From: Zygnema cylindricum
Lineage: Eukaryota; Streptophyta; Zygnematophyceae; Zygnematales; Zygnemataceae
Length of the DNA stretch: 64,000 nucleotides
Direction: 5' to 3'
Assembly: GCA_037447655.1 (NCBI GenBank)
Contig: JBBHKE010001261.1
Span: 1 to 64,000 of the forward strand
Position numbers and translations under genes: made by a program. Below are positions 10,795 through 43,423 of the stretch, piece after piece; within the stretch, counting starts at the first letter, position 1; each line of letters begins with the position of its first letter. Under the pieces are notes generated by a model, which saw only the letters and a list, made by a program, of their open reading frames with translations, was not told the DNA's origin and searched no databases.

Positions 10795-11603
10795 GGGTAC
10801 TTTCGCATGTGTTAAAGCTACAATTATTTCGTGTCGTTTTCCTTCATAACTTAGAAAAAAACGAGAAAATCCGCAGCCGTACGAAAAAAATGAAATTATC
10901 ACCTTACAAGTTGCATTACCGTGAAACTTTATACGTACAGTAGTATGTCGTTTAGCGCGATGCAATTTGTCGTTTAGCGCATTTCGACCCATTTTCGCGT
11001 CCTTCCATCACATGTTCAAACTTTACATCAAATCACCTCGCGAGGTGATTTTAAATATAGTCCAAAAAGGTGAGCGAATAGACTGTTGCTATCGCACGTG
11101 TAGGAAGTTTTTTCAATTTTTGGGCGCGGAGTACCAAAAAAAAACACACTGCAAGTTTCCAGCCTGTGCGTAATGTTTTGCGTGCGCTGATTTCCGTACA
11201 GGTGCCGTCTCTCTCAAAAACACGTGTCTTCACACATACGCGTATGAAAAATATTGGCCACTTGTAGGCAAGTGGGAAGACGAAAAACGAAACCGCAAAT
11301 TCTGTGCGACAGCGAAAGGTATTTTAGGGTTTCGACACGTCGACAATGTGGCGTACACCATTACGAAGTCACAAAAATTGTACAGCGTGCGACGAAATGC
11401 CTCAAATTGAAGCCGAGTGTAAGTTTCGCCTCATTTTATGTACCACTTCATCTGTCACAATTCTTTGTACATGTCTACGTAAGTCACTTTTTTAAGTGAC
11501 AAGTTATATGCGTTTACATCCGAATGCTCTGAAATATGTACGGAGAATCTTCGCTATAAAACAAAGTAGCAAGACTAAGTTTCGGTTACATGCGAAAGTA
11601 CCC
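10795..11603. mobile_element. PIF/Harbinger-like MITE, copy 2
   Basis: It is the same element as 7153-7959, with the same GGGTACTTTCGCATGT terminal repeats. The right flank is TTA as in copy 1, but the left flank is CCA, so the target duplication is missing on the left. The left end of the MITE is also the left breakpoint of the larger duplicated block. Confidence 0.8.
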
Positions 11604-12513
11604 TTATTGTTGTTGCCGACGGTTGCAGAAATCAGACAGAAACGACATCTAATCCACGCTATAGACATTCACATGAAAGGAAAAGGGAATAATGCCAAAA
11701 TTTAAAAACCGATTCGTTGGCGCATCAACTAAAATCTGACACGTGTACTTCTATAAGGATAGTCGAATTACGGAAATGAAGCAATTCCAGCTGTTAGCTT
11801 GTCCACACAAATTCCGAACCAAAGATTCTTTGTTCCAATCGGCGATTTAGGGAGCGTTGGGAACGACTGTCCTTATTAGATCCAGCCAAAAAATGACACA
11901 TCATTATTCTGGCGTTAAAGATTTGCCGTACGTTATCCGCTCTAGATTTTGTCGAGTGTTACCTATCACCGCTGACGACTAACCGGTATTCTGTTAGCTG
12001 CTTGCCGACTGGCGAGAAAAGCTGGGATAACCGACAAAGCAAACAGTCAAAAAACTATAAAGGATACACTCCTTTATGGAAGTACGAACAACACGTGTGG
12101 GACATTTCAAGGCTGCTCTGGTTTTAGTAGGGTTCAGAGGAGTAAACTCTATATATGATTTCTTATTTCCTTTCTAGACAAGGTTTCCACGTGTATCATA
12201 AACCTTCGACTTGCCATTATAACGACAAATTTTGCGGTTCAACATAGAAAACGACAAATAAAAACAGTACACCGTCCAAACTACAGTCCTGTAATTTAAG
12301 CTTTATCCTAAGTGACGTAGCGCCTTGTAAAACGACAAAAAAATTGGATGAAATTCGTACACCTCCTGTCCACATCCACATCTATCACGCCACGTGTGGC
12401 AGTTAATTCTTCCAAATCCCGCGGCTGTTTTAAAAGACGAACGAGCCAGCTGGCCAGGCCCTTAAACATACCTCCCGTACCCAGCCATGAGAAGAGAAAA
12501 AAACAACCATTTC

Positions 12514-12522
12514 TATATATAA
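12514..12522 (+). promoter_or_regulatory. Probable TATA box of the root-cap-like gene
   Basis: TATATATAA lies 160 bp upstream of the first ATG. At the usual 25-35 bp spacing, transcription would begin near 12545-12560, close to the right edge of the duplicated block. An identical box is in the orphan copy near 8873. This is a prediction from spacing only. Confidence 0.55.
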
Positions 12523-12681
12523 GTTTTCGGCCGCCATCATTTTCAAATATTTTCGAAGTTCACAAATTTTCAGACCGACCAAAGTGTGTCAGAAAGTCTG
12601 CCCTAACATTTAACCTAATCCTGCCCTAATTCGGCCCTAATTTTGACCTAATTTCGACATTTCTTTCTCGTTTTTCCACCA

Positions 12682-23415: not shown

Positions 23416-23542
23416 CGAATAAGGCCCTTATGCGAGGGTTATTTGAATGGCACAACTTGATGGAAAATTGCTAGTGTTGTGTATCGGTAGCCATTTGTCA
23501 ATAGCCGATATGCACCTTTTTTTGACGTAACGATAATCATAT

Positions 23543-25008
23543 TGTCGAGCGTGCTTGAGAAACATGAGAGAAGGGCCCACTGCCCGGAGTAGTCGGCATC
23601 AGAGTCCTGCAAATAACCCCCAAAATGCGAATGCTCTAAAAATATGATTATGCCCACTACTGCCCAAATCCCTCCCATATACATCCATGCAAAATAGGGG
23701 AGACAATCAGACAGGTAATAGGAATGAGCGCATGGGATGGCGAAAATATATCTCCTCCCCCTTCTTTTCCCCACCTGGCCGGGGAAAGGGATTGGGTTCT
23801 TGGTAATTAAACCGGTGTCCCAATTTAGTTCTAATCCGCTGGAAGTAAGCCAAATGTGTCCTCAAAACCTAGTGTTATGGTACAAATGATTCTACAAGTC
23901 TGTTCCGGCGGGATTGCCACCGAAGCAAAAGGAACTAGCAAAGAGGATCAAATAAACTTCCATGCAGAAAATAATAAAAATAAATAGAATTGGCTGTTTC
24001 AGATTTAACAATATCACCTTGCCCCAAAAAATGGAATGGACGATAAAATTAATAATGATAGCAAAGCAAGCTCAACATTCCCCGGAAAGCCAAGGTGACA
24101 CAAAGAGAAGACGAAATATCCCCCTGTGCCACGAATGACATGTATGATCCTCCTTCACACCTCGATTTTCGTAGATCGGAACCGACTTGACTCTTCTCAA
24201 TTTCAATGGCAAATGTCAAGATCGCCCAAAAGGATGGATAGTGCAAACTAACCGCCCGAACTACGACCTCCAAACAAGACAGATCCAAACCAAGATGGCA
24301 ATACAGTCAAGCACTCAAACAAGACACAGATTCTCCAAAAAAAGGTTTGTTTGGAATTTTCTGAGGGTTTTCACAGGAGATAGTACTGAAAAGCAACGTG
24401 TCTCCTTCGGCCCCAAGTGCCTTATACATCAAAGTTTGTCAAATCGTAGGTCCAAAAGTCAAAGCTGTTCTACTAGCCAATGAGCGACAAGCAAGTGTAA
24501 TGGAACTGACTTGAGACAAATTAATCCGTACTACGCTTGGGGCAAAAGGTTATGCACCGGACTGCGGCTAGATTCGCGGCCGGAAGTAATTATTTGTTCC
24601 ACTATTATAAGACAAAGAACTAAGAAAGACATAAAAGTGCCAGACGTTGACCTAAGGTAATAAATGGACCAAAAATCAGCTGAACCTGAACTGAATTCCT
24701 ATTGACAGCTAACAGCATAATTTGACAACAATCTGGAAGTTTACGTGGCAATCCACAATGTACCCCCCACTAGGGTAGGTGTAACTGGTCCCATGTAACG
24801 GAATTGCAATCTGGGAGAGGGAATAGCTTGGTTGTCCGACCTCCGTTACGCGTGAAATAAAGTGCGTTTTGCTTAGTTTAGGAAATATAAGAATCTCGTC
24901 CGACTGGGTACACTCCTTCCTCCGTACTTTGATGACCGTACAGGGGAGAAAGGGTCCGAAAATCCTTGGTGATATAAAGGTGTGCCTGTAAAGCACACGA
25001 GCTTGACA
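23543..25008 (-). repeat. 3' LTR of element F
   Basis: The 1466-bp LTR runs TGTCGAGC to GCTTGACA on the plus strand. About 23840-25008 aligns with the right LTR (51050-52228). The first ~290 bp, absent from the right LTR, are present in the solo LTR at 1152-2664. Confidence 0.8.
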
Positions 25009-25010
25009 GC

Positions 25011-25306
25011 TATCGAGCGTGCCCGAGAAACATGAGAGAAGGGCCCAGAGCCTGGAGTAGTCGGCATCGAAGTCTTGCAAATAACCTCCAAAATGCAAAT
25101 GCTTCCCATAAAAATGATTTTGCCCACTGTTACCCGCATCCCTCCCATAGACATGCATGCAAAATAGGGGAGACAATCGGACACGTAATAGGAATGAGTG
25201 CATGGGATGGCGAAAAGATATCTCCTCCCCCTTCCTTTCCCCACCTAGCCGGGGAAAGTGATTGGATTCTTGGTAATTAAACTAGTGTCCCAATTTCCCC
25301 CCCTCT
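25011..25306 (-). repeat. Extra partial F LTR plus polypurine tract
   Basis: 25011-25294 repeats the first ~285 bp of the adjacent LTR (TCGAGCGTGC, then GGGCCC, ending in TTGGTAATTAAAC). Next to it, TTTCCCCCCCCTCTT (25294-25308), purine-rich on the minus strand, fits the polypurine tract. A normal element has one LTR here, so this is a rearrangement, perhaps a collapsed tandem LTR. Confidence 0.6.
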
Positions 25307-25421
25307 TAGGCAACTCTAACTAAGACATAAGAATAATTACCCGCCTAATTCGCAGTTCTTACAGAACCAGGCTGGGGGGTAGAGTGCGTGGTTCCCACGA
25401 GGAGGGGAGACAGGCGGGATG

Positions 25422-26150
25422 CTAACACTGACCGCACTCATGGCGGATCAAGACATTGCCCAGCTGAGAGGACACGCTGATTGTTGAGGAACACAAAGGA
25501 GGGTCGGCAAAGTAAGTGAAGTGAAAAGTGGGTTCGTATTCCAATCCCCGAAGATGGCAAGGTGCCACATTGATCTGATTCTCCTTAATTTTCCGACCAT
25601 CCTTTCCCTCTTGTGTTAGAACTCCCTTGTTGGAAACTTCTATCACTTTCAAAATCACCCGCCCTACAGAAATATCAAGCGTAATCTTCTTTTGTTGCAT
25701 CCAATATATAAAGTCCCTTGGCATAAATCTTCGCTGCCTGGGCACATTATTCCTGCTCCGTCGCTGAGAATACCACAGCTGATCCCTGTGTTGAGCCGCC
25801 AGCAAATTCCGCATAGCGAGAGACATCTATTGGTGGAAGATCTTGGCTATATCGGCGATGATTTTCGACCGTTCCCTTGTCATCCATCTCCGAGAGGACC
25901 AGCGCTTGGGCGAAGGCAGCCCTGAGCAGGATGGGATGCCGTCCGAATAAAATGAAGTAAGGGCTATAAGAGTGCAGAGAAGCTTGTCTGCTAAATCTGT
26001 ATCCCATGGCGGTCCAAGGCACCATTCGGTCCCATTCTCCCAAATCTTCTTCCACTGCATATTTACGTAGTGACCTCTACAGTGTCTGTACGCAACTTGG
26101 TCGCCTCTCCTAGAGAGCATCTTGTATAAATGGCTAACTTTGGGCAGCCA
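25422..26150 (-). pseudogene. Element F integrase C-terminal fragment
   Basis: On the minus strand, broken frames give EEDLGEWDRMVPWTAMGYRF, then SRQASLHSYSPYFILFGRHP, followed after a frameshift by a tail with DFIYWMQQKKITLDISVGRV and VLTQEGKDGRKIKENQ, ending NVAPCHL. The first block is the end of a gypsy-type integrase core (W..PW..MGYR...SPY...FGR.P). The tail resembles the extended C-termini of gypsy-like polyproteins in green-lineage genomes, with a V(G)R-type module and GKDG turn. At least two frame breaks separate these pieces. The zinc-binding domain and DDE catalytic residues are absent, lost with the reverse transcriptase. Confidence is good for the family and low for exact ends. 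Confidence 0.75.
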
Positions 26151-26164
26151 TAACTATCAATTTC

Positions 26165-26499
26165 TTGACCATTTTTAGTGATTATTTTTGCTGCGGACTC
26201 AAGGGAGTCCAAGCTACACAAAGGTGTAGTCGGTGAGAGTTTTTGTTTGCCAGGTTGGCTGCATTTCTAAGGGAAAGTCAAAGTGGGTGAATGTGTCCAA
26301 ATCTCATATTCAAACTTTGCATTCTGTGGTGGAACCGAGCACACAGAAAGTGTTATTTCACAGGGGTGAATATATATTGGAGTTCTGACTGTCAAGGGGT
26401 CAGTCATTTGGGTTTATATCAACTTGGAGTCGGCACTATCTAGATTAGCTTCTTTTGGATATGCTTACTCTGAGGGCCAATGGAGGTCTCAGAGTTTCA
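26165..26499 (+). mobile_element. 5'-truncated copia LTR fragment inside F
   Basis: The segment aligns with the U5-side part of the copia E LTR (reverse complement of about 29646-29990): GACTC/GAGTC hairpin, GCACACAGAAAG, ACTTGGAGTCGGCAC. It ends exactly at the LTR terminus, with an ATG 20 nt before the end as in the other copia LTRs. The rest of the copia element is missing. It marks the junction where F lost its reverse transcriptase and integrase core, so an insertion followed by a deletion is likely. Confidence 0.75.
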
Positions 26500-26694
26500 C
26501 TGACAACTTCCGCTAAGTTGTTGCAATATGAGCCGCCGCCCCCCCCCCCCACTGGGAAAACCTGTTGTGGTGAAATGTGAATTTTTCTTCTCCTTTCTCT
26601 CCCCTCCTCAAGCTGCAAAGTTGCCTACATAGCTAACAACTGAGGAGCTTGAAGGTAGGTAGCACTTGACTTTTTGGATTGGAGACTGGAAAAG

Positions 26695-27690
26695 GCAAGA
26701 GCATGCTTTACCATCCAGGTGATTGCATTCAAATCCATGCTTTGCCCTATTAAGTTGCACCTCTAGATGTTTGAAATACTTGATGCGGCTGTGGTTCCCG
26801 CATTTAATCCCATGGCCTGCTCTCGTTCTGTGATTTTCGGTGTCGTCCCGATTTTTGCTGCACTATCGTAGATCATTCCAGTTGCTCCTTTCCGATATGT
26901 GTGACTATGAGGAAAGGAAACTAATATAAGAAGTGCTCTGCGTGGACTTCTTGGTTGGTTGCATTAGAAGAACGGAGGACAGTATTTTTTCGTCATGGGT
27001 GTTGCCATTCGCCCTTTTCGAGGATTTGCTACACAGAGTTTTGCGAGTCTGGGATTTGCCTTTCCAAGATTTTGTTGAGTGTTGGAAGCGAGATTAAATT
27101 GGTCCAGTAAGATCGGACTCTGTGTGCGCAAGATCCCATCTGTGCTGCATCAAAGACCAATGGAGCCCCTAAAATCTGGGTGACCAGATTCTTGTTGTCG
27201 GCCACATGTCTTCGTTTATCATCTGTTGGGTGAACATTTTCTAAGACGTACCCCACTGGTGTGTTTTGGAGCTGTTGTAACTATGATTTTAACTGCACCA
27301 TTGTAAAACATGTTTTACCCCTCCGATCGTGATGCCCTTTTCTTTGTCTTGCTAGGGAGTATCCTTGACAAGGCCATCTTGCCACCACCAAATGTACTCT
27401 TCCCAAACTGGTCAGATGAGGTGTCATGATATTTTCCACATTATGTGGGAGACTTCGGTGAGCTTTGGAAATTGCCGACACTGGAAGCTGTTGAGGATAT
27501 AGGTTGTGAAGGTGTTGGAGGCGATATTGGCTGACAACTCGTGCTTCGGGTGATATCTCAACGGCTGTATACAATTCTACCGGATATCATGCTTTCAAAA
27601 CGGCTTCCAGATCAGAAGTGAATCAAAAAAAATATAGATAAAACCCGGAGGCCTGAATCGGGAACAGTCAATGACACCACTTGTCGGTTG
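26695..27690 (-). pseudogene. DNA (cytosine-5) methyltransferase domain of element F, decayed
   Basis: Reading leftward from about 27690, the C5-methyltransferase motifs appear in canonical order: RVLSIF (motif I, then a frame break), DLEAVLKA, TAVEISPEARVV (motif II), RWPCQGYSLARQRKG (motif IV with the catalytic cysteine), GYVLENVHP (motif VI, catalytic glutamate), AHRVRSYWTNL (motif VIII), EREQAMGLNAGTTAA (motif IX) and LIGQSMDLNAITW (motif X). The short span between VIII and IX and the AHR.R.YWTNL block resemble DNMT3/DRM-type enzymes more than DNMT1. Lesions include a stop in place of a glycine before YPVELYTAVE, a TAG after MVQLKS, a frameshift after about 27030 and a stop before motif X. 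It sits between the protease region and the integrase fragment, so it was part of the retrotransposon polyprotein. Inactive now; the active ancestor is inferred. Confidence 0.85.
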
Positions 27691-27723
27691 AATTTTTCGT
27701 GTTCGGATATGGTCCCGGAAACA

Positions 27724-28602
27724 TCAGACCGGAGGTTTGAAACTGTTTCCTGTAGTGATAAAGCTGAGAATGTCTGATCCACTCCCCGCCGGAGTTTTGC
27801 CACGTCTATTAATCTGTTTTTGTATTCCTCTTCCTAGCGCTTGGTAATACGGAATTGCTAGATCTCCTTTGCTATATCTTTGTAGCTGGCAAAAAGTTCC
27901 GCCGGAAAAGAAGTTGCATACACCGGGTAGCAACCAGACATCGTGACATTGGTCTTCCCCCAGTTCCATAAGTTGAAAGGAACCACCACTTTGGTTCCTT
28001 CCGGATCCCGGGGTCCCGAACAGTACATTGTTCTTCCACACGCTTAACCCCATATTCAGCCATGTCCATGTGGTCATTCCCAACAAAATTTCAAATTGAG
28101 TTATTTCAAACCTTAAGAATGGAAACTCAATTTTCAATTGTTCGCCTGCGTTATTGGAGAATTCAATTTTCATGGCTTTGATAATCGTATTGACTAGCTG
28201 ACTACCGCTGCTTACCGTGCTCAGGCAGATGTTGCTTAGGCAGATTTCTGGCCGGAGTTCTTTGGGCATTTTCTGTAAAGCGAGGTCGGTGGTGAGGTTG
28301 GGGAGCGCTTCGGTGTCGACAACAACGTCTTGATATCCTCCGTTCCCGTTGTGTATGAAATTTCCCGTTTGGTTTAGTATAATAGCCACTGATAAAGTTT
28401 TGTAGTCCCTATCCACCATAGGGATTTTCGGATCAGTAGACAAAAAGACGATTGTCGGTGGAGCTGCTTCGTCGACTCTCTCTTTCCCAGAGTGTATCTC
28501 TTCTCCCAATGCCTGAATGAGGATTTCTTCGGGCAGGTTGTGGGAGGATGCCAGAGTTTTGACGTGGGTTAGAGCGTAGGGCATGAGGTGCCGAACTAGC
28601 AT
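27724..28602 (-). pseudogene. Element F retropepsin-like region
   Basis: An open frame of 292 codons. Around residues 125-190 it contains ICLSTVSSGSQLVNT followed by FLRFEITQFEILLGMTTW, the layout of a retroviral-type aspartic protease (active-site loop, then a flap and an ILLG..-type strand). The usual D-S/T-G is SSG here, so the catalytic aspartate appears lost. The frame begins 7 nt past the stop of the upstream 254-codon frame, suggesting one polyprotein broken by a frameshift. Immediately downstream lies the methyltransferase. Alternative: a gag-derived region with only chance similarity. The protease call is moderate. Confidence 0.55.
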
Positions 28603-28608
28603 GATATC

Positions 28609-29645
28609 CTACTTGGAAGAAGGAAGTAGAGCTTTTGGTGAAGATGTTGGGGAATATGGTTCCTGCTGATTCTGCATTTTTCCTTCCTTTTTATCACCAT
28701 CGGAGCCAGAATTTGGTGTCGGTGGAGTTTGAGGAGTGTCACCGTCGGGGCATTCTGCCATATATCTCTCAAACCAATCCTTATTGCTTTGTTTTTCTCT
28801 TTCCAGTGACTCTTTTTCCAGCTGCTGTTTCTCAATCTTGTAGTTTTCGAAATCGAGAGGCAGTTTAGGTTTAGTAGGAAGAAATGACGGATGTGTGGGT
28901 TTAATTCCAAGGTCGATGTTGCTGTTGAGGATCACCTCCCGGGGAGTGAATGAGAAAGGCGCAGTAGCCTTCCGGTTGTGGTCCTTTTGACCCATTCGCT
29001 TTTTGTCTTTTCTTTGTCGACGGTTATCTCCCACCCCTACATTATAAGCTCCATACAGGAAAGTTCGTCCATGGTGGGCATTTAGGGGTTCCCTATCCCA
29101 GCCCAATATGTCGTCATCATTAGCACCCGCTTTGCTTTGAAGCTCAAGCTTGGCAAGCTTTTGTAACAACTCTTGCTTCTGTTTTTGGAGTCTTTGTGCT
29201 GAAGTGAGTGGTGCAGCGTGTGATGTGAATCCCAAGCGGAGGGCGGCCAATCCTCCGGCCATTGCGGCCAGCTGCTGGCTCTGCTGCTGAATAATGGTTC
29301 TGGGGTAAGCCTTGTCGGAGCAACCGGTGCTCTTTCTGGTTCCTCTTGAGTGAGCAGAACTCTGCGTCACCAAGGGTAAAGAAGTTTAAGTGGGAGAGGG
29401 TTAACGACAGTTTCTCCTTCTCTAGTGAACACGGCAAACTGCATCATTTCTTTGGGTATTCTATTGTTGCGGAAGCATTGCCCTTCATTATGCCCCATGA
29501 AACCACAAGCCTCGGATTTCTATCCTTTGGAGGTATATTTGCTGCGAATTTCATTTGATATTTGGGCGTCATCAAACTTTGGAAGTTTGATTAGCCGCAG
29601 TTGGGATTGGGACATTTTAGATGTTTCGCTCTGGGGAGTTGGACG
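28609..29645 (-). pseudogene. Element F gag/linker region
   Basis: A 254-codon frame (29373-28609) encodes a low-complexity, charged protein: Q-rich near residue 30, then a K/Q/E-rich coiled-coil-like stretch (QRLQKQKQELLQKLAKLELQ) and a P/S/T-rich C-terminus. Upstream (29645-29374) broken frames include ACGFMGHNEGQCF, a relic of a second zinc-knuckle-like motif. These join the gag sequence at 34949 once element E is removed. No catalytic domain is seen. Confidence 0.55.
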
Positions 29646-30467
29646 TGAAATTCTATGGTCTCCATTGCCACACTGAAATCGCAGATCCAAAGAAGCTTAT
29701 CTAGAAAGTGCCGACTCCAAGTTGATACAAACCCAAATGACTAACACCCTGACAGTCAGAACCCCAATACAGATTCACCATTGTGAAAACAAGACCTTCT
29801 GTGTGCTCAGTTCCACCACGGAATGCAAACCTTGAAAAGGTGATTTGGGCAATATTCCACACTTTGACTTTCCCTTATAAATACCGCCACCTTGGCAGGC
29901 AAAATCTTTTATCGACTACACCCCTGTCTAGCCTGGACTCCCCTGAGTTCGCAGCAAAAAGAATCACTGAAATTGCTCACCCGAGCATTAAGTTTTGGCC
30001 GGCCAAAGATGGCCTATAAGTACATAAGCACTCTGGGAGAGAGGCGGTTACCTTGATTTTTTTCTAAGTCCTAAGCTCCCTCTCTAAACCTACTACTTGT
30101 GTACCCTAACCAATCAAATGATTGTAAGGTACAAGAAAGTACAGGTACCGCTGTACTTCTTGTACGGCCATAGTACGACATGGCCGCTCCGCTGACGCGT
30201 GTCAGTTCATGAGCTGTAGTTGCTCCCCTCGTAATATCCGCTATCTAACCATATCATGCCACGTGTCGTCTGCCGACATTGGCTTGCAAACCGCCAAATG
30301 TCCACTTCGGTGCTTCGGCCCCACTGTGAGACGTCGGATATGAAACCGACAAGTAATCGCGTCCGTTCAAATAGAGTGTCGTTTTGTTTCGTAATCCGCG
30401 AAATAGAGTATGTAGATTGGTACCACATTTAAATACAATTAGAACTCAGAATATATATCGTTTTGTT

Positions 30468-30538
30468 TAGCTTTAGTGGATAAGGTTAAGTGCTACATCA
30501 CTCTGTAGACCTAGGTTCAAATCCCACTAAGGTCACCA
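30468..30538 (+). other. tRNA-like module, antisense in the E LTR
   Basis: Reading plus: TAGTGGATAAGGTTAAGTG (box A/D-arm-like), then CTACA-TCACTC-TGTAG (5-bp anticodon-like stem), then GGTTCAAATCC (exact box B/T-loop type) and a tail ending GGTCACCA. The cloverleaf is imperfect and the position is inside an LTR, so this is not a cellular tRNA gene. Comparable modules occur in the other copia LTRs. Confidence 0.6.
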
Positions 30539-30931
30539 ATACATTTTAGATTACACTTGTCAATATCTCTATCTCCCTCTTTGCGTGGTAATTATTTATA
30601 TTGAAAAAACCCATCATCTTTATCTCTCGATCTACACATATAGGTTAGTTCTTTCGTCTATATGACCAATCCACAGACCCCGGTTCAATTTCAGTTTTTT
30701 GTGTATATATTTTGGCAGACTATCATCTTAACCCTCTTGCTTGTCTCCCTGACTATCTGAGGGCAGCCATAGAGTTTCTTCTGTCTCTTAGTGACTACGA
30801 CAAGTTTATAGAGATAGAAGTATTTCTAGGCACCATGTAGAAACTTTGAAAAACCTTTTAATACTATTTGTCAAACACATAGAAAAATACAGACCTAGGA
30901 AATACATAAATTTTAACACTCCCCTTATTTT

Positions 30932-31795
30932 CTAGTCAACTTTTCTTTCAACTCCAACCAAAAACATTTCCTTTTTTTTTTTTCCTTTCTCCTCATAAAA
31001 CTTTGATTGAATACCCTCGTTTTTAAAGAAGTGTATTAGATGAGCCGAAATAAATATTGCATCTTGTTGATCATACATGCCACTTTTCATAAATCCGAGC
31101 TTTTGGAGCAAGGATTTTATTAACCTCATCCCTTTTTCATCCGAGCAAAAACCAATTTTCCGCTTGCAATTCAAAAAGCCAGCCCCATCCCCAACTTGCA
31201 ACACATACCCAGATGTGAACCCTTTTACAGGCACACCTTCATAAATGGCATCACTCCCTTTAGTGATGTCAAATCCATTAACCCCTAAATTTATCCCTAA
31301 ATCAAAAGTCCCCACTAAGTTCCTCATAAAATCTACATCTACTGTACTCATATATTTGTCCAAGATAATTACCCCATTTTCTAAACTTCCCTCACTCTCT
31401 CCCATGGAATTCTTTCCACTATCACTTTCTATTTTGATTCCCAATAAATATTTCTCCTCCTCTAAACTTTTCATTAAATATTCCTCCTCTCCCCTATCGT
31501 TTAAAACCCCCTCTAGATTTACTTCTCCCCTTTCCTCGGAATCCGTTGAAGTCTCCCTTTCCGACCAGTTTTCTCTTTCCAAAATATCTATAAAATTATC
31601 CTCAATATTTTTATTTTTCCCTTTTTCAATTAAGGATCTTAGATCTGTCTTTCTCATTTCTAAGTCATACTTTCTACACCCCTTGACATCCTCATCATGT
31701 CTAACTCTCTCAAATACCTCCCTTCCCTTTACTTCCCTTATACCACCAAAAGCACACTGTTGCTTTCGTGGAATCTTTGTGTTGTCATGCCGCAT
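30932..31795 (-). CDS. Chimeric, internally deleted copia pol ORF of element E
   Basis: 287 uninterrupted codons stitched from distant parts of a copia polyprotein. It opens with IPRKQQCAFGG (the gag-protease junction, IPRRQKCAYGG in element B), then DEDVKGCRKYDLEM (end of integrase), EEEKYLLGIKIESD (reverse transcriptase thumb), ENGVIILDKYMS, GFTSGYVLQVGDGAG (RNase H) and a long C-terminus equivalent to LL.ELG..K.GV..IFC, but without DNQA. Catalytic residues of all enzymes are missing. A frame this long after several deletions could be chance or may reflect selection for a small product. It ends just before the 3' LTR. Confidence 0.6.
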   Translation of the reverse strand: MRHDNTKIPRKQQCAFGGIREVKGREVFERVRHDEDVKGCRKYDLEMRKTDLRSLIEKGKNKNIEDNFIDILERENWSERETSTDSEERGEVNLEGVLNDRGEEEYLMKSLEEEKYLLGIKIESDSGKNSMGESEGSLENGVIILDKYMSTVDVDFMRNLVGTFDLGINLGVNGFDITKGSDAIYEGVPVKGFTSGYVLQVGDGAGFLNCKRKIGFCSDEKGMRLIKSLLQKLGFMKSGMYDQQDAIFISAHLIHFFKNEGIQSKFYEEKGKKKKEMFLVGVERKVD

Positions 31796-31799
31796 CTCG

Positions 31800-33450
31800 T
31801 CGGCTATTTTAGTTGTTTATATTTGGGTGTTAGGACGGGCAGCCGCTACACTAATTTGTATTTGGGTATTATTTGGGTTTCGCAAGACCGTACGACGTGT
31901 ACCGTACGACCTACATTTTCCGTGATTTCCGGGATGGCGATTTGGATCGTACCCGCGGTCCTACCGTACGACGTATAATTTCCGCGATTTCCGTCGACGG
32001 CGGATTTGACTATTTCGCGTCGACCGTACGACTTACGGCGACCGAAATTCCCGGGGCCACAAATTGGACCGTACTTGCGGTCCTGCCGTACTTATTTATT
32101 TTTTCTGGATTTCTTGCCGACGACACATTTTCGAATTGCGTCAAGACAAACAAACTTACCGTACTATATATATTTTGCGCGATTCTCGCCGACGGTAGCT
32201 TCGATCATTTCACGTCGACCGTACGACTTATATTTTCCGGAATTCGCGCGACGACAAAGTGGCCCGTATCTGCGGTCCTACCGTACAAGCTTTCATTTCC
32301 TTGAATCCCGGCCGACAGCAAAACTTAATCATTTTGCGTGGAGTAGCATCTCGACCGTCGACACAAAGTATGCGATTTTTGTAATATCACATCTGGACCG
32401 TCGACGCAAGTGACAGACAAATCGACTGTCAATTCTGACGAAGCGACGTCATTGGACTATTTAAAGTCGTGAACCATTTGGAGGTTCACGCATTCACATG
32501 TAGATAGGAAGGGTTTTAATCCGTAGGTTATAGATTCTGTAACGTAGGGCATAGGATTTCGGCTTCCTATTGGCTGAATCCAAACTAGACGCAAATATTT
32601 ACATAGCACGCTGTACTCTGATTGGCTTGTTTTTGCTAGGCGTAGTTTTGGTTACTTAGTTCATTTCGCATCATTTCTTGCACACAATTTTCAAGTGCAG
32701 GAATTATTCATTTGATTTATTTTCAGTATTGAGGATTCTCTGCAGCCATCTATTCATTTGTAAAATTGTCCGGACAGCTTAGAGGCGATTTTCTGCCTTT
32801 GCGTGAAGTGTCTAGTTTTCTATTACATTATCAATATCTTGTAAAGCCTTACAAATTAATCTATACGGCTTCGGCCAAAACCTACACGGTTTCCCTTCAC
32901 TTTTCTCGTCCTTTTGAGTGGATTTCGGCCGTGTTCTCACTACACAAACCTCTTTTCCCGGCTGTGGCTGAGCTTTTATTAGTGTGGAAGTTGCATGTTG
33001 GGATTATTGATTTGTTTTTTTTATTTCTTGAGATTGTGTATTTATTTCTATTTGGCTTATGCGCATCTTTTGAGTTTGGCTATCTCAAACTTCATAAGTG
33101 TCGTGCATATTGTCATTTTCGATTTTTATTTATCTTTCTCGGTTGTTTATGCTTTGATTTATTTTATTTAAGTATAAATTCAGATTATCCTTGATAAGAT
33201 AACTCCTGCAAGGAATATAAATAGACCGTGGGGCCTAGTGGTCATCCATGGGCTTAGTGGGGGATAAACCGACCTAACCATAACCAGCTAAGTCGTTGAC
33301 CTTTCTTTTTCTTCCACCTTGCCTGTTGTTGTATTTACCCATTTTTACTTTTATGATTTATTTCATTTCCGATATCTCGCTATCATTTGAGTTTAAGTTG
33401 AGCAGAGTTGATGATATTGCATGCATCTTCATGTTATTTGACACATGCAC
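31800..33450. repeat. Foreign insert in E with degenerate GACCGTACGAC tandem repeats
   Basis: The copia sequence breaks off between the acidic segment after the zinc knuckle (about 33480) and the gag-protease junction (about 31780). The intervening DNA has no retroelement similarity. From about 31886 to 32420 it holds degenerate tandem units beginning GTCGACCGTACGACTTA at 32020 and 32215, with CGGTCCTACCGTAC words. 32766-33194 has a 142-codon plus-strand frame rich in hydrophobic residues with no recognised domain. Terminal repeats were not found. Confidence 0.55.
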
Positions 33451-34610
33451 GACAGTGTGCTTTTCTCTCTTCTCCATTCTACCGATGCGGAGAAGCTCCA
33501 AAATATCTTCATCCTCTTTCTCCTCTCCCCCTTCTTCCTCCTCATTCACATTCCAACTTCTAAGTTCTTCCAAATAAGGGCATTCCTCCATATAGTGACC
33601 CGGTTCCCTACAAAATAAGCAAAGCAAACCCCTCCTTTCGAAGCTCCTCCTTCTTTTCCTTTCCGTCTCTTTCCACCAAAGTTACGATAGGGTTTACCTT
33701 TGTTTTTTTTCTTGTCATTACGCTACCGCCAGTCACCATTATTTCTCTCATCACGCTACCGCCTGTCACCACCATTTTTATATCACGCTTTCGCCAATCA
33801 CCACCAGCTCTCGATGCATTCACCATGTCACTTCCCTACGAAGCTCCAAAATGCTTTCCCTCACAAGAATCATCCCAATGGTAATGCTCCAAGTCGATGA
33901 GGAGCCATCTTTTTCCTGCATACGGTTAATTATGTTTTCGTACTCATTTGGGAGTTTCATTATTAGTGTGTTAATCTTTCTCTCCTCAAATTCTACATAC
34001 CCTACACTAGCAAGCTCAACATACAACGCAACAATATCATTTCAAAACTCTATCATGCTACCATTTTTATAAACATAGGCCTTTATTTCATGTTTTACTT
34101 ATTGCTGCCTATATATAGTCTCACTCTTATAAATCTGAATTAGTGTTTCCCATATCTTTGCGGACTTGGTTAAGTTTATAAGAGTGATAGCTATGGACTT
34201 AGACACGTTTCTAAGTATGAGATGTTTTGCTATAATGTTTTTGTATTCCCATATTTTTATGTCATTTTCTTCAGTTTTTGGTTCAGTTATAACCCCTACA
34301 AGTGAAGTTGTAGCCGAGAGCCTAGCTCCCCTCACCATAGGTGTTCCTTTTCCCTTTTCTATTTTTTCCCTCTTCCATGGCAATGATTTTCTCTTCACCT
34401 TCTATTACATCTGATCCCCGGTTGGTTTTCTGGAAAGCCCCAGATGAATCTCCATAGTGAGTTCCACCAAAGCCGGGTGGCCGACATCTCACTTGTCTCG
34501 AAACAATTCCCCACAAGTGTTTTTCGAAAAGCAATCCCTCCATTGTAAATTCCAAATAAGTTAAGTCTGTTCCATCAAACATAGGCACCCTAGATGGTGG
34601 GCCCATAACC
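33358..34610 (-). pseudogene. Copia E gag, broken
   Basis: The minus strand reads MGPPSRVPMFDGTDLTYLEF from within the primer site at 34606. Broken frames then give IWEYKNIIAKHLILRN, INTLIMKLPNEYENIINRMQ and TIGMILVRESILELRR, then the knuckle CLFCREPGHYMEEC (CX2CX4HX4C). The order matches element B residues 9-313. Several frameshifts and stops disable it. The LTR-borne ATG is CTG in this copy, which removes the first of the two in-frame starts. Confidence 0.8.
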
Positions 34611-34948
34611 TAAAATTCTATAGGCTCCAGATCCAAAGAGCTTATCTAGATAGTGTTGACTCCAAGTTTATACAAACCCGAATGATTGACACCCTGACAG
34701 TTAGAACTCCAATACAGATTCACACTTGTGAAAACAAGACCTTCTGTGTGCTCAGTTCCACCACAGAATGCAGTTGACTATCTAAGGGCAACCATGGAGT
34801 TTCTTTTTTCTCTCAGTGACTACGACAAGTTTATAGAGATAGAAGTATTTCCAAGCACCAAGGAAAAACTTTGAAAAACCTTTTAATACTATCAGTCAGA
34901 CATATAGAAAAATACAGACCTAGAAAATACATAAATTTCAACAGGATG

Positions 34949-36624
34949 GTAGGTGTCTTTGGTCACGGGTGTTTTCTCTCCCCCCCCCCTTCTCCTTTGA
35001 GCCGTTCCTGTTGTTTCCTAGTCTTTTCGGCTCTTTCTTTCTCCCACTCTTTTTGCTTGAGTGCGAGTTTTGGTTTGAGTTTCCGGGGGCAGATTTTCCA
35101 CCCGTGGCGTGTTTGCTGGCAATTCAGGCAATTAAACAAAATCATCCTGTCATCAGCCCCCATGGCTCGTTCTGATCCGCTATCAGCCACCTGTTTAACT
35201 TTAAGCTTCCGCAAAGCTTGAAGTTCTTCTTGTTCTTGGTTGCTTAAAGAAGTTTCTCCGACAAATATGGTGAAGTTTGCTCTAGCCTTGCCGGTGACAA
35301 CCTTTTCCCGAGCCTCGTTGTGGACGAAATGGTCGTACAATTTTATGGCCACCGGGGAGATTTCCTTAACCAAGGGATTAATGTCTTAGATTGCCTTCCC
35401 TACAATCGAATTATCTAGAGAAGGTTGCCCCGTAGGTTCGAACGAATTTCAGACAGCGATGAAATATTTGGTTGCCATTGCAGGAAGGTCAATAGTTGAC
35501 AGTTTTGTCTCCTATAAGAGGCTGGAGAGCCTTTTTAAAAGTGTTTGCGGGGTCTCATTTTTCAAACATCGGAATTCCGTGAACTTTTTAATGGTGGACT
35601 TGTTCCTCTCGGTGTAGAGGAGTCTCCATCTGTTAAGCAGAGTAGTAAAAGGGTAAGGAATTGCGACCTTGCGAGTTGCAGCCTGGGCTGCCTGAATGGC
35701 TTGCAGATGATTGACATAGGCGGTTCCCTGTGCTTGTAGTTTCATGTCTGCTGTAAAGGTGTGCTTGTAGTTTCATGTCTGGTGTAAAGGTGGAAGACAC
35801 AGGGGTCTCCCCTGCCGCAGCCAAGTCAGCCTCCGCTTGTAAAATCGCCGCATCGAGAGCTGGATCCGAGATCTTGATGCTATGAGCCATCAAGAGTGGC
35901 TGTCCCTCCTTGTAGTCTGCCAACGCCCTTCCAAAAAGGTAGTTGACCATCATAGGAAAAAAGGAGGTTTCATAATCATCTGGAATGGCCCCTCCCCTGT
36001 ATTTGTTGATTTCAGATTGTGTGAAAGATTTCTACAGCAACTCAAAATCAGAAAAGGCGATCCCCGAGCTATCTCTGGTGAAGATCTTGACGTCCCCCAT
36101 TTCCTTTTCCTCCTCTGCAAGGTTGGTGCACTCTGGAGAGGCTGGTTTGGTGGGGCTGATAAACTAAGCCGGTGAAATTGCTCTGGGATCTGCCCCTTCT
36201 AGATTTAAACCTGTTTCTCCTCTGGGTGAAACAGATGGGACCCCCCCCCCCCCCCACTGAGGATGGTCTTGCTGTCAAAGGAGGTGTAGAATCTCTTACT
36301 CCTCTATATCCAGGAGAGTATGGTTCCTCTCTTAGAACTGTCTCCAACGATAGGATATGGAGACGAGGTCTGTTCAGAGGTGTTGGTGGAATGGACGGTG
36401 GCAGAGACGGGGATAGAGACTACTGGGGCCCGGTTGGATAAGGCGTGTGTCTCTGTGTTCGCCTTTTTGGATGTCTCGAGAGGTGGAGTTCTGGAGCTGG
36501 TGGAAAGAGAACGCTTCTGAGGAGGGGAGTAGGCGGGAAAGTCGTATTTGTAGGGTAACTCAGGTGGGTTAGGTGACCCACGGACTGCTGCAGCAAGAGA
36601 ATAAGAGGGCGAAGGAGAGGAGGA
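34949..36624 (-). pseudogene. Element F gag, middle part with zinc knuckle
   Basis: Minus-strand frames from about 35953 to 34963 give an alanine-rich, alpha-helical-looking segment (AAILQAEADLAAAGET), a segment with KKFTEFRCLKNETPQTLLKRL typical of retroelement capsid regions, then CLNCQQTRHGWKIC (about 35130-35089), a CX2CX4HX4C nucleic-acid-binding knuckle, followed by a K/E/R-rich tail. It is broken by frameshifts. The right part (36000-36620) is P/S/T-rich and poorly conserved. The sequence continues at 42942 and 49664 beyond the D and A insertions. Confidence 0.65.
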
Positions 36625-36821
36625 TGTTGAAAATAAGTATTTTCTAGGTCTAAATTAGATAAAAAATGAAGAGAGCACAAGCAGTCTCTCTCCACCTCTC
36701 TCTCCATCCCCTATACTTGTTGTAGTCAATGAAGGAGAGAGAGAGAGAGAGTAGTGGAGCCATGGCTGCCTCAGCTCAACTTGTGCAGGACTAAAGAGTG
36801 ACCTTAGTCACTCTCAACAAA

Positions 36822-36895
36822 AGGTTCGTCCGGCATGACTCGAACCCCCGACCGGCAGAGGATGGCGTAGCCGTCAGCTCTAACCGGTCTATCGT
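36822..36895 (-). other. tRNA-like module, antisense in the D LTR
   Basis: The reverse strand reads ACCGGTTAGAGCTGACGGCT (D-arm/box A-like), CCATCCTCTGCCGGTC, then GGGGGTTCGAGTCATGC (T-arm/box B) and CCGGAC. The copy in the 3' LTR is at about 42149-42226. It is the most tRNA-like of the modules in primary sequence, but the T-stem does not fully pair. Confidence 0.6.
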
Positions 36896-37589
36896 AGAAG
36901 TTTGCTAGAGTATATAAGGTTTGATAAATACTTAAATAGTGTTACGGTAGTTAAATACAGACATAAGTACATGGAGCGGATTAAATACAGTACGAATATG
37001 ATTCCGCACGAAATATGATTCCGCACGAAACAAATGAATCAGACATTTATTTTGAGGGTTGAGATCAAATACGAAATTCTATCCTACGACGCACGTCATC
37101 GCCGCGATCCCGGAATGGTCACTTTGGCATTTAGTGACGTGGCATGAACTAGCGCCACGTGGAGACATAACATTCGGTCGCGGGAATTCCGACGAACGTA
37201 CGGACGAGTGAAAAGTGGACACGCGTCCACTTAATATCCTTGTCGTACATAGGCCATACAAAAGGTATACAGGCAGTAGTACTTTTTGGTACAGTACAGT
37301 ATTGTGATTGGTATGTACTTCAGTAGATAGGAGTTATTAGAGGGAATCAGGATTTTGGTAGGCAATCACCTCTCTCTTTGAGAGTTTGTACAAATTGGCA
37401 TTTTTATTGCCTCAGAACTTATTGCCTGGTTGGGCGTTTTTACAGATTCTTTTTCCTACGGACTTAGGGGAGCCCAAGCTGCACAAGGGTGCAGTCAAGG
37501 TGTTTGCTTGTGTGATTGGGTAGCAGTGGTTGCTATTGAAAGTTGGTTAGTTAGTAACTATCTAGAGGCTTCTTAAATTCTGTAGTCCA

Positions 37590-40500
37590 ATGGAGGACAC
37601 AAAATTGCAGGTTATGGGCCCACCCTCTAGGGTGCCCATCTTCAATGGATCGGGGTTTATCTATTGGGAAGCCATGATGAGAGGGGCTTTGTGTGAAAAA
37701 CGATACTGGAGTATTGTTAGTGGACAAGTGAAACTTCCACCTCAAGGAACACCACCGGGATTTGGTGGAATAAGGTTTTTTGTACCAACAACAGATGCAG
37801 CAAAGGAGGCAGATGATGGGGACAACAATGTGTCTGAAAAGGGGAAAGAAAAGGAGACACCTCTTACTCCTATTGCTCCTATTCCCACGACACCCGGAGC
37901 GGCGATCGTGAAGACCGTGGAGACCGACACTTAAATGTGGGAAGACACCAACATGGCTGCCAAGAACTTCATTCTCAGACACCTCACACATGCTTTGGCA
38001 ACTCCTCGCCTTCATGTTTACAAGGCCGAGGAGTTGTGGGTGAGTTTGATAGAGATCTATAGAGCATGTACAATTCAAGAGCTTTAGTTGGCAGAACAAA
38101 AGTTGGGAAATTATACTTACAAAGGGGGAAAGATGTTAGACTACTACAATGATCTTTCTTGTTTGTATATAGAGTGGAGAGTGCCGGGTAGACAGATACA
38201 ATGAAGATGAAGGTTAACACTCTCATCATGAAAATACCCGCCGAGTATAAGAATATAGTGTTCAAAGTACAAGAAATAACTGATAGTTCATAGAAGTGGA
38301 ATACAGTGGTCCGCATGATAGTTGTGTAAGAGAACACGATTGAAATCAGGATAGGAGGAAAGAGCATTCAAGCTCTAACCGCCGAAGGGGACAAGTAGAA
38401 ACCGGACCCGCAAAAACCATACAAAGGAGAAAGAGTTCAGCCGAGAATACCGAGGCCCCCAAATAGCCTATGTCATTTTTGCAAAAAGTCGAACACTTTA
38501 TCACGGATTGTGTCAAGCTATCGGAGCTGAGGCTCCAAGAGAACTATGGAGAAGGTTCTTCCGGAGGGAAGAAAAAGACACTTTTGATCACAAAGGTGAC
38601 AGAGAGATCGAGGACGAGTCCTCTGAGGAGGATGGGGAACTTCTTCTTAACGAGAGTCTAGAGGAGAAGGAGATCCCTTAGAGACAAATGTGTGCCCTTG
38701 GAGCAATTCGGGAAGCTCCAGAGGAAAGATGGATCATCAACTTAGGTGCATCCATGGATATGTGTCGTGACAAGGACCTCTTCACTAAGCTAAGGAAAAT
38801 CCCTACTATAGAAATAGAGTATGGGGATGGGAGAGTGGTTACTACAGATCTAGTGGGATCAGTAGATCTGAAAGTCTTAGTAGAGGATAAGACTTCTAAA
38901 CTCACTTTCTCAGATGTGCTCTATATTCCTGAGCTGAGTAAAAATCTTGTCTCTACATCTGTGTTAAATGACAAAGAGTTTGATATCTTCACTAGAAAAG
39001 GAGTCTTTACAGCTAAGCATGGGGATGAAGTTTACTTCACTGTAGATAAGGGAAGCCAAGGAACATTTAGGCTTAACCTGAGTAATGAAAAGAAGAATGC
39101 TTACTATGTTAGTGTACCAAAATTGATGATTTGGCATAAGCGATTGGGGCATGTGAATTTTGATAGGTTGAGGGAAATCAAAAAAACTTGGTGAAGTAGA
39201 AGGCATTCAGTTCACTTATAATGAAATGGTGAATGATTCTAGTGGTTGTGCCCAAGGTAAAGCTCACAAACTTCCTTTCCCTAAAGCCGCCACATATAGG
39301 GGAGAAAAGGTACTAGATTTGATCCACACAGATATCTGGGGACCAGCAAGGGTACCATCACTAGGAGGGAAGAGGTATATGTTGACAATTACTAATGACT
39401 AGGCCAGATATTCTAGAGTCTACTTCCTAAGATCCAAGTCTGAAACACCAACTTACTTCAAAGAATATAAAGCCTAGAGTGAGAAGTTGCATGGAACCCC
39501 CAATAAAAGAATAAGGAGTGATAACGGGGGAGAATATAACTCTTACCAGTTTGAGGAATACTTGAGAGATGAGGGAGTTTAGCACCAAAAAGTTGTACCA
39601 CATAATCCACATCAAAATGTAGCTGAGAGGTTAAACCGAACACGAAGAGATAGTGTAAGCAATATGTTGGATGACAAGAAAATATGAAAGAGATTTTGGG
39701 CAGAAGCCATGAACTGTGCCAACTATATTAAGAATAGAGTCCTTACCTCAGCAGTCAAAGGTATGACACCTTATGAGAGATGGGTTGGAAAGAAATCGGA
39801 TATCTCTCACCTTAAAGTATTTGGTAGCCAAGTTTACATACTAGATACGGATAATAAAAACTGCAAACTTGATGCTAAGGGAAAACCCTGATATTTTGTA
39901 GGATATGATGAGGATGTCAAGGGACATAGAGTATATGTCTTAGCAAAGCAAGATATCTTTTTGCTCAAACACCTAGTTGTCATCGATGAAGGAAAGTCAA
40001 TTGACCCCTTCAAATATACCAAAAAGATAAGAATCAGGTTTGAGTCCGAAAGTGAACTCTGTTTTTCTAGAAAAGGACATGAGTGAGACAGTGATTGCAG
40101 ATTCAGCGGAGATTTAAGAAAAAGGAAAGTTACCGGATACCTCACATATTCCTATGGACTTGGAGGAGACAGAAGTGGAGAAACCGGACCCAACTTCCGT
40201 GGTTAAAGGAGACGATAAAACAGTAAGGAGAAACCGAAAAATTCCCTCTATTCCAACCTCAGAGTTTGATGGAGGAAGAAGGAGCAGCAAAAGGATACAA
40301 GAGAAACAAGTTGCTCGTAAGGTAACAAAGCTATCTCATCCTGAAGAGCCTCAGTCATACTTAGAGGCAGTGAACAGCGCAAAAAAAGACAGATGGATTA
40401 GAGCCATAAATGATGAGATGGCTTCCATCATGGAAGCAAATACTTGGGAGCTAGCAGATTGTCTTCCAGACAGAAAAACTATTGGCTGTAAATGGGTATT

Positions 40501-41875
40501 TAAACAAAAACTGAACCTAGATAATACCATTGAAAGATATAAGGCTCGTTTGGTAGCAAATGGGTTCACCCAAAAGGAGGGGATTGACTATGAGGAGACG
40601 TTTGCTCCAGTTGTTCGGTTCCCATCAGTAAGGATTCTCCTTAGTCTGGCAGCAGCGGATGACATGGAAATACATCAAATGGACATTAAGACCGCTTTCC
40701 TCAATGGTGAGTTAGTGGAAGAAATCTTCATGCGGCAACCGGAAGGGTTTGTGGAGAATGAGGAAGAGAGCAAAGTTTGTAGGCTGATAAAGTCATTATA
40801 TGGACTTAAGCAGGCTCCCCGACAGTGGAATAAGAAACTAGATGAGTTTCTTACTAGTCTAGGATATATTCGGGTCAGCTCTGACCATTCTATCTATATG
40901 TTTGAAGATGAGGATGGTGTGATTTTTATTGCAATTTATGTGGATGATCTGCTGGTGTTAAGTAAATCTTTGGAAAAGATCAATAAGTTAAAGAAATATC
41001 TTAGAAGCAAATTTGACATGAAGGATTTAGGGGAGGCAAGATATATATTTGGGGATCCAAACGGAAAGAGATAGGGGGAAAAAGATCGTTAGACTCACTC
41101 ACAAAGAAGCAATAGGAAATATGCTTGAGAAATTCTAGATGGAGAGAGCAAACAGTTGTACCACTCCCATGGACTTGAAAAAAGTAAGTGATGGGAGTGT
41201 AGAAGGAGTGATAATCTTAGATGATCAGATGAGTCCAGAGGAGAGAGAGTTAATAAAGTCTATTTCTTACAAACAGGTCGTAGGAAGATTGATAAACTTT
41301 ATGAACTATATATGACCGAACATAGCGGCAGCAGTACAATTCCTCAGTAGGAGTCTTAATGATCCTAGAAAGAGGGATAGGGAGGTTGCCAAGAGAATCA
41401 TGAGATATCGGGTAGAAACCAGAGAGTTGTGGATGCATTTGGGAAGAGAGCACACTGATATCACCACTTGGAGTGATGCGAGTAATGGGGATGCACATAT
41501 AAGAAGATGCACTTCTGGATATGTTCTGTATGTGGGTGAAGGTGATTGCTGTTGGAACAATAAGCAACAAAAGGTGGTTGCTCAGTCTACTATGGAGGCT
41601 GAGTATATGGCCTCTTGTTCTGTTGTAAAAGAATTTATGTGGGTCAAGTCATTATTGTAACAACTGGGGTATATGAAGGAGGGAGTGTATGAAGTCTTTT
41701 GCAATAATCAAGCTGCAATTGCAATTGCAGCCAATCCAAAACATCATTTCAAAGCTAAACATATGGACATAAGATTGAGCTTCGTGAGAGAAAAAGTTGA
41801 AAATATAATTTTAAATCTTGTGTATAGACTTGATGAAGAAATGGTGGCTGACATGATGACCTAACCTGTGCCCTC
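37590..41875 (+). pseudogene. Copia D gag-pol, many stops
   Basis: It begins MEDTKLQVMGPPSRVPIFNG with the ATG inside the LTR. A stop follows TVETDT at 37934. Later pieces: protease/linker and integrase N-terminus with HKRLGHVNFDRLREIKK (38688-39194), integrase core fragments (about 39240-39700), the integrase tail (39709-39891), reverse transcriptase with MDIKTAFLNGELVEEIFMRQ and YVDDLLVLSK (40154-41074), RNase H with WSDASNGD and STMEAEYMAS (41400-41660), and CNNQAAIAIAANPKHHFKAK (41673-41864). Many point stops (TAG/TGA) and frameshifts make it non-functional. It is closest to elements C and B. Confidence 0.9.
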
Positions 41876-42941
41876 TCCTAAACTAAATATTGTACGGAAA
41901 AATGCGGGTTGAAAGAAAAATTAAAACTAGACTAGAAAATAAGGGGAATGTTGAAAATAGGTATTTTCTAGGTCTAAATTAGATAAAAAGTGAAGAGAGC
42001 GCAAGCAGTTTGTCTCCACCTCTCTCTCTCCATCCCCTATACTTGTTGTAATCACTAAAGGAGAAAGAGAGAGAGAGTAGTGAAGCCATGGCTGCCTCAG
42101 CTCCACTTGCGCAGGACTAAAGAGTGACCTATGTCACTCTCAACAAAAGGTTGAGTCCGGCAGAACTCGAACCCCCGACCGGCAGAGGATGGCGTAGACG
42201 TTAGCTCTAACTGGTCTCTCGTAGAAGTTCGCTAGAGTATATATGGTTTGATAAATACTTAAACAGTGTTACGGTAGTTATTCGGATTAACGGAAATACA
42301 GACATAAGTACATGGAGCGGATTAAATACAGTACGAATATGATTCCGCACGAAACAAATGAATCAAACATTTGTTTAGACGATTAAGATCAAATACGAAA
42401 TTCTATCTACGGTGCACGTCATCGCCAAGATCCCAAAATGGTCACTTTGGCATTTAGTGACGTGGCATGACCTGGCGCCATGTGGAAAGATAACATTCGG
42501 TCGCGAGAATTCCGAGGAACGTACGGACAAGTAAAAAGTGGACACGCGGTCGCTTAATAGCCTTGTCCTACATAGACTGTACAAAAGGTACACCGGCAGT
42601 AGTAATTTTTGGTACAGTACAGTATTCTAATTGGTCCGTACTTCAGTAGATAGGAGTTATCAGAGGGAATCAGGACTTGGTAAATTTTGGTAGGCAGTCA
42701 CCTCTCTCTTTGTGAGTTTGTACAAATTGGCATTTTTATTGCCTCATAACTTATTGCCTTGTTGGGCGTTTTCAGAGATTCTTTTTCCTACAGACTCAGG
42801 GGAGTCCAAGCTGCACAAAGGTGCAATTAGATTGTCTGTTTATGTGCTTGGATAGTAGTGGTTGCCATTGATAGTGGGTTAGTTAATAATTATCTAGATG
42901 CTTCCAGAATTCTGTAGTCCAATGGAATACACAGAATTGCA

Positions 42942-43214: not shown

Positions 43215-43423
43215 TGTAGAAACTAATGGTTTTATTAGTATTTTCTAGGTCTGAAAAGAAATATAGAAGTCGAGGCAGTCTATCTCTAACTTCTCTCTCC
43301 AACTCTCAAACTTGTCGCAGTCACTGAGAAATTTGAGAGGAAGCTAGAGCCATGGCTACCTTGGCTATCCTGAGGTTTACAGGAATTTTATATTAGGGTT
43401 TATATATTTAATTAAAATGTATG

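Follow-up and report, generated by a model that had tools for sequence, protein, structure and literature searches.

A DNMT3-like cytosine-5 methyltransferase in the Pol region of a Ty3/gypsy-type retrotransposon family of Zygnema cylindricum

1. Introduction

How a cytosine methyltransferase domain comes to lie inside a retrotransposon, and what it might do there, is the question raised by a locus of the streptophyte alga Zygnema cylindricum. A transposon bearing the type of enzyme with which its host silences transposons inverts a common idea of genome defence. According to the accessible text of de Mendoza et al. (2018, PMC5890265), methyltransferase-bearing retrotransposons have been described in one charophyte and in dinoflagellates, the very precedents that an earlier note on this DNA, made from the letters alone, had named. 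That note had described a C5-methyltransferase within an LTR element, here called F, of the window, by which we mean the whole 64,000-nucleotide stretch of contig JBBHKE010001261.1 (C946 in our numbering) that was analysed. We conclude that F, now decayed, belongs to a large Ty3/gypsy-type family whose Pol carries a DNMT3-like cytosine-5 methyltransferase between the protease and the reverse transcriptase (RT); our probability of about 0.9 covers this identification alone, and not what is proposed below on cDNA methylation or circular intermediates.

2. A Broken Methyltransferase Domain in Element F

The minus strand of the window encodes, at 26607-27692, a broken DNMT3-like C5 cytosine methyltransferase domain. 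Frame-aware alignment, which the earlier note had named as one of two tests able to refute its claim, finds homology at E = 7e-133: in tblastn, the domain of an open copy from contig C161, 363 residues long, is matched over its residues 2-363 by 27692-26607. The three segments of this match, with 90, 67 and 68% identity, contain 0, 4 and 3 in-frame stops (7 in total), with two frame changes. The domain does lie where it had been placed, at 26695-27690, and extends slightly further on both sides. The Pfam profile PF00145 scores 21.7 bits (E = 1.5e-4; cut-off 22) on the minus-strand frame when stops are read as X; on single pieces of F it gives E = 0.0012 for one piece and no match for the next. 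The motifs PCQG, ENV and R.RSYWTN and the motif IX/X stretch, all listed beforehand, are found in the minus-strand translation of 26600-27751, where they are spread across two frames, with the IX/X stretch in the second.

Element F spans 23543-52228 on the minus strand, about 28.7 kb between the ATAT target-site duplications at 52229-52232 (5′ end) and 23539-23542 (3′ end), which agree with the matched duplication noticed earlier; F is this long because other elements are nested within it. Following the ATAT, F starts at 52228 with TGTCAAGC, the beginning of the 5′ terminal repeat A1 (51048-52228), which is 91.2% identical to a second copy, A2, and is matched by repeat A of the family copy C1214 over 51137-52228 at 73%. 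The first part of gag (49805-50946; 36-66% identity in tblastn with the C1214 gag frames) is followed by the first of three nested elements that break F, a plus-strand copia-type element at 43215-49664 (left end also put at 43193) with LTRs 99.1% identical and the duplication GCATC. A gag piece at 42989-43216, recognized by tblastn with family frames, separates it from the second (36618-42942, plus strand), copia-like by DNA similarity alone, whose terminal repeat pair is 86% identical. Further parts of gag (34981-36597; 60-84% identity in tblastn) precede the third, a minus-strand copia-type element between gag and protease (29657-34943, end approximate) with an internally deleted 5′ LTR and the duplication CATCC/CGTCC, in which 4 of 5 bases agree. 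The end of gag, zinc-knuckle-like by eye, and the aspartic protease region (27861-29645; 58-74% identity in tblastn, the protease matches in two family copies being under the Pfam cut-off) then lead to the methyltransferase domain.

On the other side of the domain lie a truncated, oppositely oriented copia-type LTR (26122-26499, plus strand, left end approximate), an inverted 78% match to 29634-30041, and the C-terminal part of the integrase with a PHD-like tail (25340-26121, minus strand; 65-86% tblastn identity to C1214 and C1374). F is devoid of RT, RNase H and most of the integrase, about 840 residues being missing between methyltransferase and integrase tail, and this gap coincides with the truncated LTR. 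The gag and protease pieces upstream and the integrase tail downstream, which the note had named as neighbours, belong by tblastn to the same family as the domain. The 3′ end of F comprises, all on the minus strand, the G7 run of a polypurine tract (AAGAGGGGGGG; 25297-25303), repeat B1 (25011-25296; 74% identical to family B and 88% to B2), repeat A2 (23828-25008), recognized by the family A match and by comparison with A1 and joined to B1 through GC, and repeat B2 (23543-23826), recognized by the family B match and ending with CTCGACA at 23543 before the ATAT. No primer-binding site of F was identified, and the window contains neither tRNA genes nor Rfam families at gathering score.

Two other readings of this layout were rejected. 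An inverted repeat of about 408 bp flanking the domain, considered as a sign of separate insertion, consists of two copia LTR pieces. An origin of the integrase tail from another element than the methyltransferase was discarded since the main segments of the tail match the family at 76-86%. Apart from this, the window holds two near-identical (98.6%) copia elements in inverted orientation, at 43193-49663 and at 56890-63362, with the duplications GCATC and TACAT, and the third nested element contains a 294-residue open frame at 30935-31816 (minus strand).

3. The Family Across the Genome

The assembly searched has 2,689 contigs and a total length of 352.8 Mb. A genome-wide search with the motif VI-VIII piece of F yielded 1,017 candidates at first look, and all 150 that were scored, the window included, match at E < 1e-26; a PF00145 search gave 782 candidates, with 123 of 123 scored over the cut-off. 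Nine copies were fetched with about 18 kb each. Eight have long open frames; the ninth, C1357, is closest to F by the query piece and proved to be a methyltransferase fragment among other repeats, with neither A nor B. The copies were selected by methyltransferase match, so how frequently the domain is absent is not readable from them.

In C1374, a 1,520-residue open frame at the methyltransferase runs through RT, RNase H and a DDE integrase. The Pfam order in this copy is protease (22.3 bits, under cut-off), PF00145 (50.7), RVT_1 (101), RNase H (123), integrase zinc (56) and integrase core (46); with RVT_1, RNase H, integrase zinc and rve over the cut-off, this is the Gypsy order RT-RNase H-integrase with a DDE core. 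C2026 has the protease before the domain and RT after it, and in several more copies the domain lies in an open frame that continues into the Pol sequence downstream. These copies bear on whether F merely happens to hold the pseudogene of a host methyltransferase, or a sequence inserted independently at a later time, in a family otherwise without it. Such an accident would suit an element broken by several nested insertions, with a domain that is itself frame-broken; yet in other copies the domain occupies the same position and shares an open frame with the Pol sequence that follows, and F matches these copies collinearly on either side of the domain, through the protease upstream and the integrase downstream. 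Because of the collinear copies, a chance insertion is already refuted and deserves next to no credence. As the earlier note had held, the domain belongs to F, C1374 and C2026 having it at the same place, and is an inherited part of the element.

Twenty shorter loci were also fetched, most for their long open frames; eight of these surround copies of the first set. By pattern match, 18 of the twenty contain an open frame that has the ENV motif and two do not; the whole 363-residue domain is open in 11, 9 of which are distinct. More than one type of enzyme is represented. A second type, with ECQG for PCQG in motif IV, is 37% identical to the first, has DNMT3A as its best match (8.1e-11) and occurs at L062 (contig C1344) and L063 (C1407) in open frames of 2,395 and 1,757 residues; at L062 a single 1,137-residue frame joins a zinc knuckle and a protease (both under cut-off), the methyltransferase and the start of RT. 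A third subtype, 55% identical, is found at L065/L050. The PHD-like finger that ends the integrase scores 17.8 (C1374), 23 and 19 bits in the three tails tested, against a cut-off of 24 (loci L025:5252-6055, L012:3270-3791 and L010:3-3875); it could guide integration toward certain chromatin. Among the 20 loci listed from the PF00145 search, the only clearly host-type methyltransferase is L054, a chromomethylase-like exon whose best PDB matches are 9mvy, 7ubu and 4fsx (3.4e-29 to 3.7e-29), the last of which we take to be maize ZMET2; the next group, presumably animal DNMT1, follows at 1.2e-12. Such an exon speaks for a host of the plant lineage.

4. Affinity of the Domain

Profile and fold comparison support a predicted placement of the domain with DNMT3. 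A PDB search with a nine-copy profile puts DNMT3A first (1.3e-11), followed by 3C and 3B, then HhaI (9.4e-5) and 4onj (0.0022), the latter being, we assume, tobacco DRM. A first AlphaFold model (pLDDT 43) was too poor for use. The second, built from 16 sequences, has a mean pLDDT of 61.8 and a pTM of 0.66, with residues 180-246 below 50; in a fold search with it the best 50 of 1,267 matches consist entirely of DNMT3 structures and complexes (lowest E 1.5e-8), in superpositions that are loose (TM to query 0.45-0.51, rmsd 7.5-11.9 Å). Motifs I, IV, VI, VIII, IX and X follow the canonical order, and a circular permutation of the DRM type was not found. The DNMT3/DRM affinity suggested beforehand is thus supported for DNMT3, and DRM is less close.

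A capture from a phage or bacterial methyltransferase, rather than from a eukaryotic DNMT3, would be compatible with motif IV of the domain, as PCQG or ECQG is found there in many bacterial enzymes, with NCBIfam dcm superfamily matches of 45 and 55 bits (cut-off 100.65), and with five relatives in IMG/VR that are 30-57% identical over short stretches. By eye, these five resemble ordinary Dcm-like enzymes. A first scan with the pieces of F itself, made on the question of phage origin, gave 0 relatives among 10 stretches, and a scan of bacterial and archaeal genomes with two peptide patterns found no relative. The E-value for DNMT3A is nearly seven orders of magnitude below that for HhaI, and the best 50 fold matches, all DNMT3, likewise argue against such a capture, as does the grouping of the equivalents from Klebsormidium nitens with Dnmt3, in a divergent clade, in the accessible text of de Mendoza et al. 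(PMC5890265). We consider a prokaryotic or viral source improbable, and a eukaryotic DNMT3 affinity remains the preferred reading.

5. Selection on the Domain

Low dN/dS indicates that the domain is probably under purifying selection. Of the 55 pairs that the 11 full domains (9 distinct) form, 39 were usable by the NG86 method, with a median dN/dS of 0.12 (range 0.06-0.42); the other 16 pairs were dropped for a dS too low, too high or undefined. These values are biased low because the copies were picked for open frames, and the pairs are mutually non-independent. The median is 0.07 between subfamilies (18 pairs) and 0.24 within them (21 pairs), where constraint is weaker, with values up to 0.42. 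RT, with a median of 0.02 (4 copies, 5 of 6 pairs), is more constrained than the methyltransferase. All 16 sequences aligned, drawn from three types, share the catalytic Cys, the EN of motif VI and the two Arg of RxR without change; open copies thereby keep the catalytic motifs, and catalysis on DNA is predicted.

CpG depletion was rejected as a sign of self-methylation, being non-specific: the observed/expected ratio is 0.62, with 0.61 in the F region and 0.88 in the window, and a copia frame has 0.50. The domain is not required for spread here, since the twin of the first nested element at 56890-63362, which lies outside F and on which the copia identity was checked by Pfam (RVT_2, 283 bits), has an intact-looking open frame of 1,454 residues without it.

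6. Split Terminal Repeats and Integration

The order of parts in F is A1 - coding - polypurine tract - B1 - GC - A2 - B2. An ordinary LTR pair was not found: the 5′ end has A only, and B occurs at the 3′ end only. Ends were examined in ten copies (the nine fetched and F) and both ends were seen in seven, C665, C1662 and C1357 being incomplete. The full split form A-coding-B-A-B, flanked by matching 4-bp duplications, is present in F (ATAT), C886 (ATCA) and C1214 (GAAT), and a single-unit form A-coding-B in C161 (CAGG), C2439 (GAGG) and C2026 (GCAC/ACAC, 3 of 4 bases); C1374 has a split 3′ end with an extra B copy and no matching duplication. Identity between A1 and A2 amounts to 91.2% in F, 91.8% in C1214, 96.7% in C886 and 97.4% in C1374 (part), and F is therefore not among the youngest copies.

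The B-A junction CTCGACAGCTGTCAAG, which contains the palindrome GACAGCTGTC, occurs 129 times genome-wide, and its reversed control 0 times; in F's own junction one base is changed. Among 100 junctions listed, 40 have, on the same strand and no more than 20 kb upstream, one of 272 listed methyltransferase matches, which come from two overlapping lists (149 + 123); 26 of these 40 lie 3.8-4.4 kb 3′ of such a match. The control (other strand or downstream) gave 6. Ends of the form A-coding-B-A-B, as in F, are also known from PAT/Kangaroo-type split-direct-repeat elements, which use a tyrosine recombinase and are not known to make a target duplication. By Pfam, the C1374 frame contains a DDE integrase and no tyrosine recombinase, which sets it apart from DIRS elements. 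How split repeats go together with a DDE integrase is a separate puzzle.

One conceivable solution, which we put forward tentatively and consider rather doubtful, is that the DDE-integrase elements of this family integrate from circular DNA cut at the B-GC-A palindrome. Classical reverse transcription would yield a linear molecule whose LTR is B-GC-A, and the joining of its ends would produce one- or two-LTR circles. The integrase would then cut the internal palindrome GACA-GC-TGTC at the B-GC-A junction. Insertions of the A-coding-B or the A-coding-B-A-B form, flanked by 4-bp duplications, would follow, and the circular intermediate might be what the methyltransferase marks. Were this so, integration would have a third route, intermediate between the linear ends of retroviruses and the circles used by tyrosine recombinases. 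A good deal can be said for an alternative in which the single-unit form arises later, through recombination of B1 with B2, and the split repeats reflect an unusual template jump: B1 and B2 are direct repeats, whose recombination would keep the duplication and give exactly A-coding-B. The A2-B2 joint, however, varies by a base or so among the 4 copies read, as ligated circle ends would, even if mutation after insertion could also account for this variation. We rate this alternative a serious possibility, slightly short of an even chance.

7. Relation to Known Elements

The charophyte K. nitens has a genome of about 100 Mb. Its element KnitGypsy-Dnmt3 is described as a Gypsy element, intronless, with a Dnmt3-type domain in Pol, a Ka/Ks below 0.2 and repeats as in DIRS, in the order A-coding-B-A-B (de Mendoza et al. 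2018, PMC5890265, Fig. 4c legend for the repeats). By description only, the family of F is alike in its Gypsy domain set, Dnmt3-type domain in Pol, lack of introns, purifying selection and A-coding-B-A-B ends; every feature that the accessible text gives for KnitGypsy-Dnmt3 and that was tested here agrees, and the family is therefore counted with that already described kind. The Gypsy-Dnmt3 kind has thus been known since 2018, and here it is strongly amplified in another genome: the family numbers more than 1,000 candidates in 353 Mb, and such elements are less numerous in K. nitens (PMC5890265). The 4-bp duplications, single-unit A-coding-B copies, palindromic junction and PHD-like tail seen here do not appear for KnitGypsy in the accessible text of that paper, the main text of which does not contain the word PHD.

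The dinoflagellate elements of the same source are more distant. SymbioDIRS-Dnmt3 resembles the family of F in having Dnmt3 in Pol and split repeats, but integrates by a tyrosine recombinase, whereas the family of F has a DDE integrase and 4-bp duplications. SymbioLINE-Dnmt shares the presence of a methyltransferase on a retrotransposon and differs in its LINE architecture and orphan methyltransferase lineage (PMC5890265). In the open-licence literature, the name KnitGypsy was found only in PMC5890265, no text from 2018 on was found to join Gypsy, Dnmt3, retrotransposon and streptophyte, and the accessible text of PMC8566409 features no retrotransposon.

8. Putative Role of the Enzyme

The strong amplification, the presence of at least two diverged methyltransferase types, the many open copies and a host with a plant-type chromomethylase exon distinguish the present case, and as a result the role of the enzyme is testable through the methylation of young and old copies. 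It may be envisaged that the methyltransferase is translated within the Pol polyprotein, accompanies RT and integrase, and methylates newly synthesized cDNA ahead of integration or at about that time. New insertions would then resemble the host's own methylated DNA or be quiet from the outset. We give this putative self-methylation of element cDNA about an even chance; F itself is now incapable of any of these steps. Alternatively, the enzyme might act on RNA or on host chromatin, or mainly restrain the element to spare the host. The PHD-like integrase tail, at the scores given above, could bind histones, which would fit an action on chromatin; the place of the domain in Pol beside RT, however, suggests cDNA as the target, and relatives of DNMT3 act on DNA. 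As possibilities, de Mendoza et al., who proposed cDNA self-methylation for the DIRS types, discuss methylation of RNA, in the case of the LINE type, as well as restraint; a test in yeast of the K. nitens relative saw no methylation and was inconclusive according to its authors (all in the accessible text of PMC5890265). An action on RNA or chromatin, or a restraint of the element, is conceivable and on the unlikely side, and cDNA remains the target that we favour.

9. Other Repeats in the Window

An older relative of A and B lies in one piece at 1152-2664, with a polypurine-like tract between the two. It is a relic of F's family from which the coding part has been deleted, and its flanks, TCAT and GTAT, agree in 2 of 4 bases. 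A direct repeat of 1.77 kb with 99.6% identity (7152-8919 and 10794-12560) is perhaps a young terminal repeat pair or a duplication.
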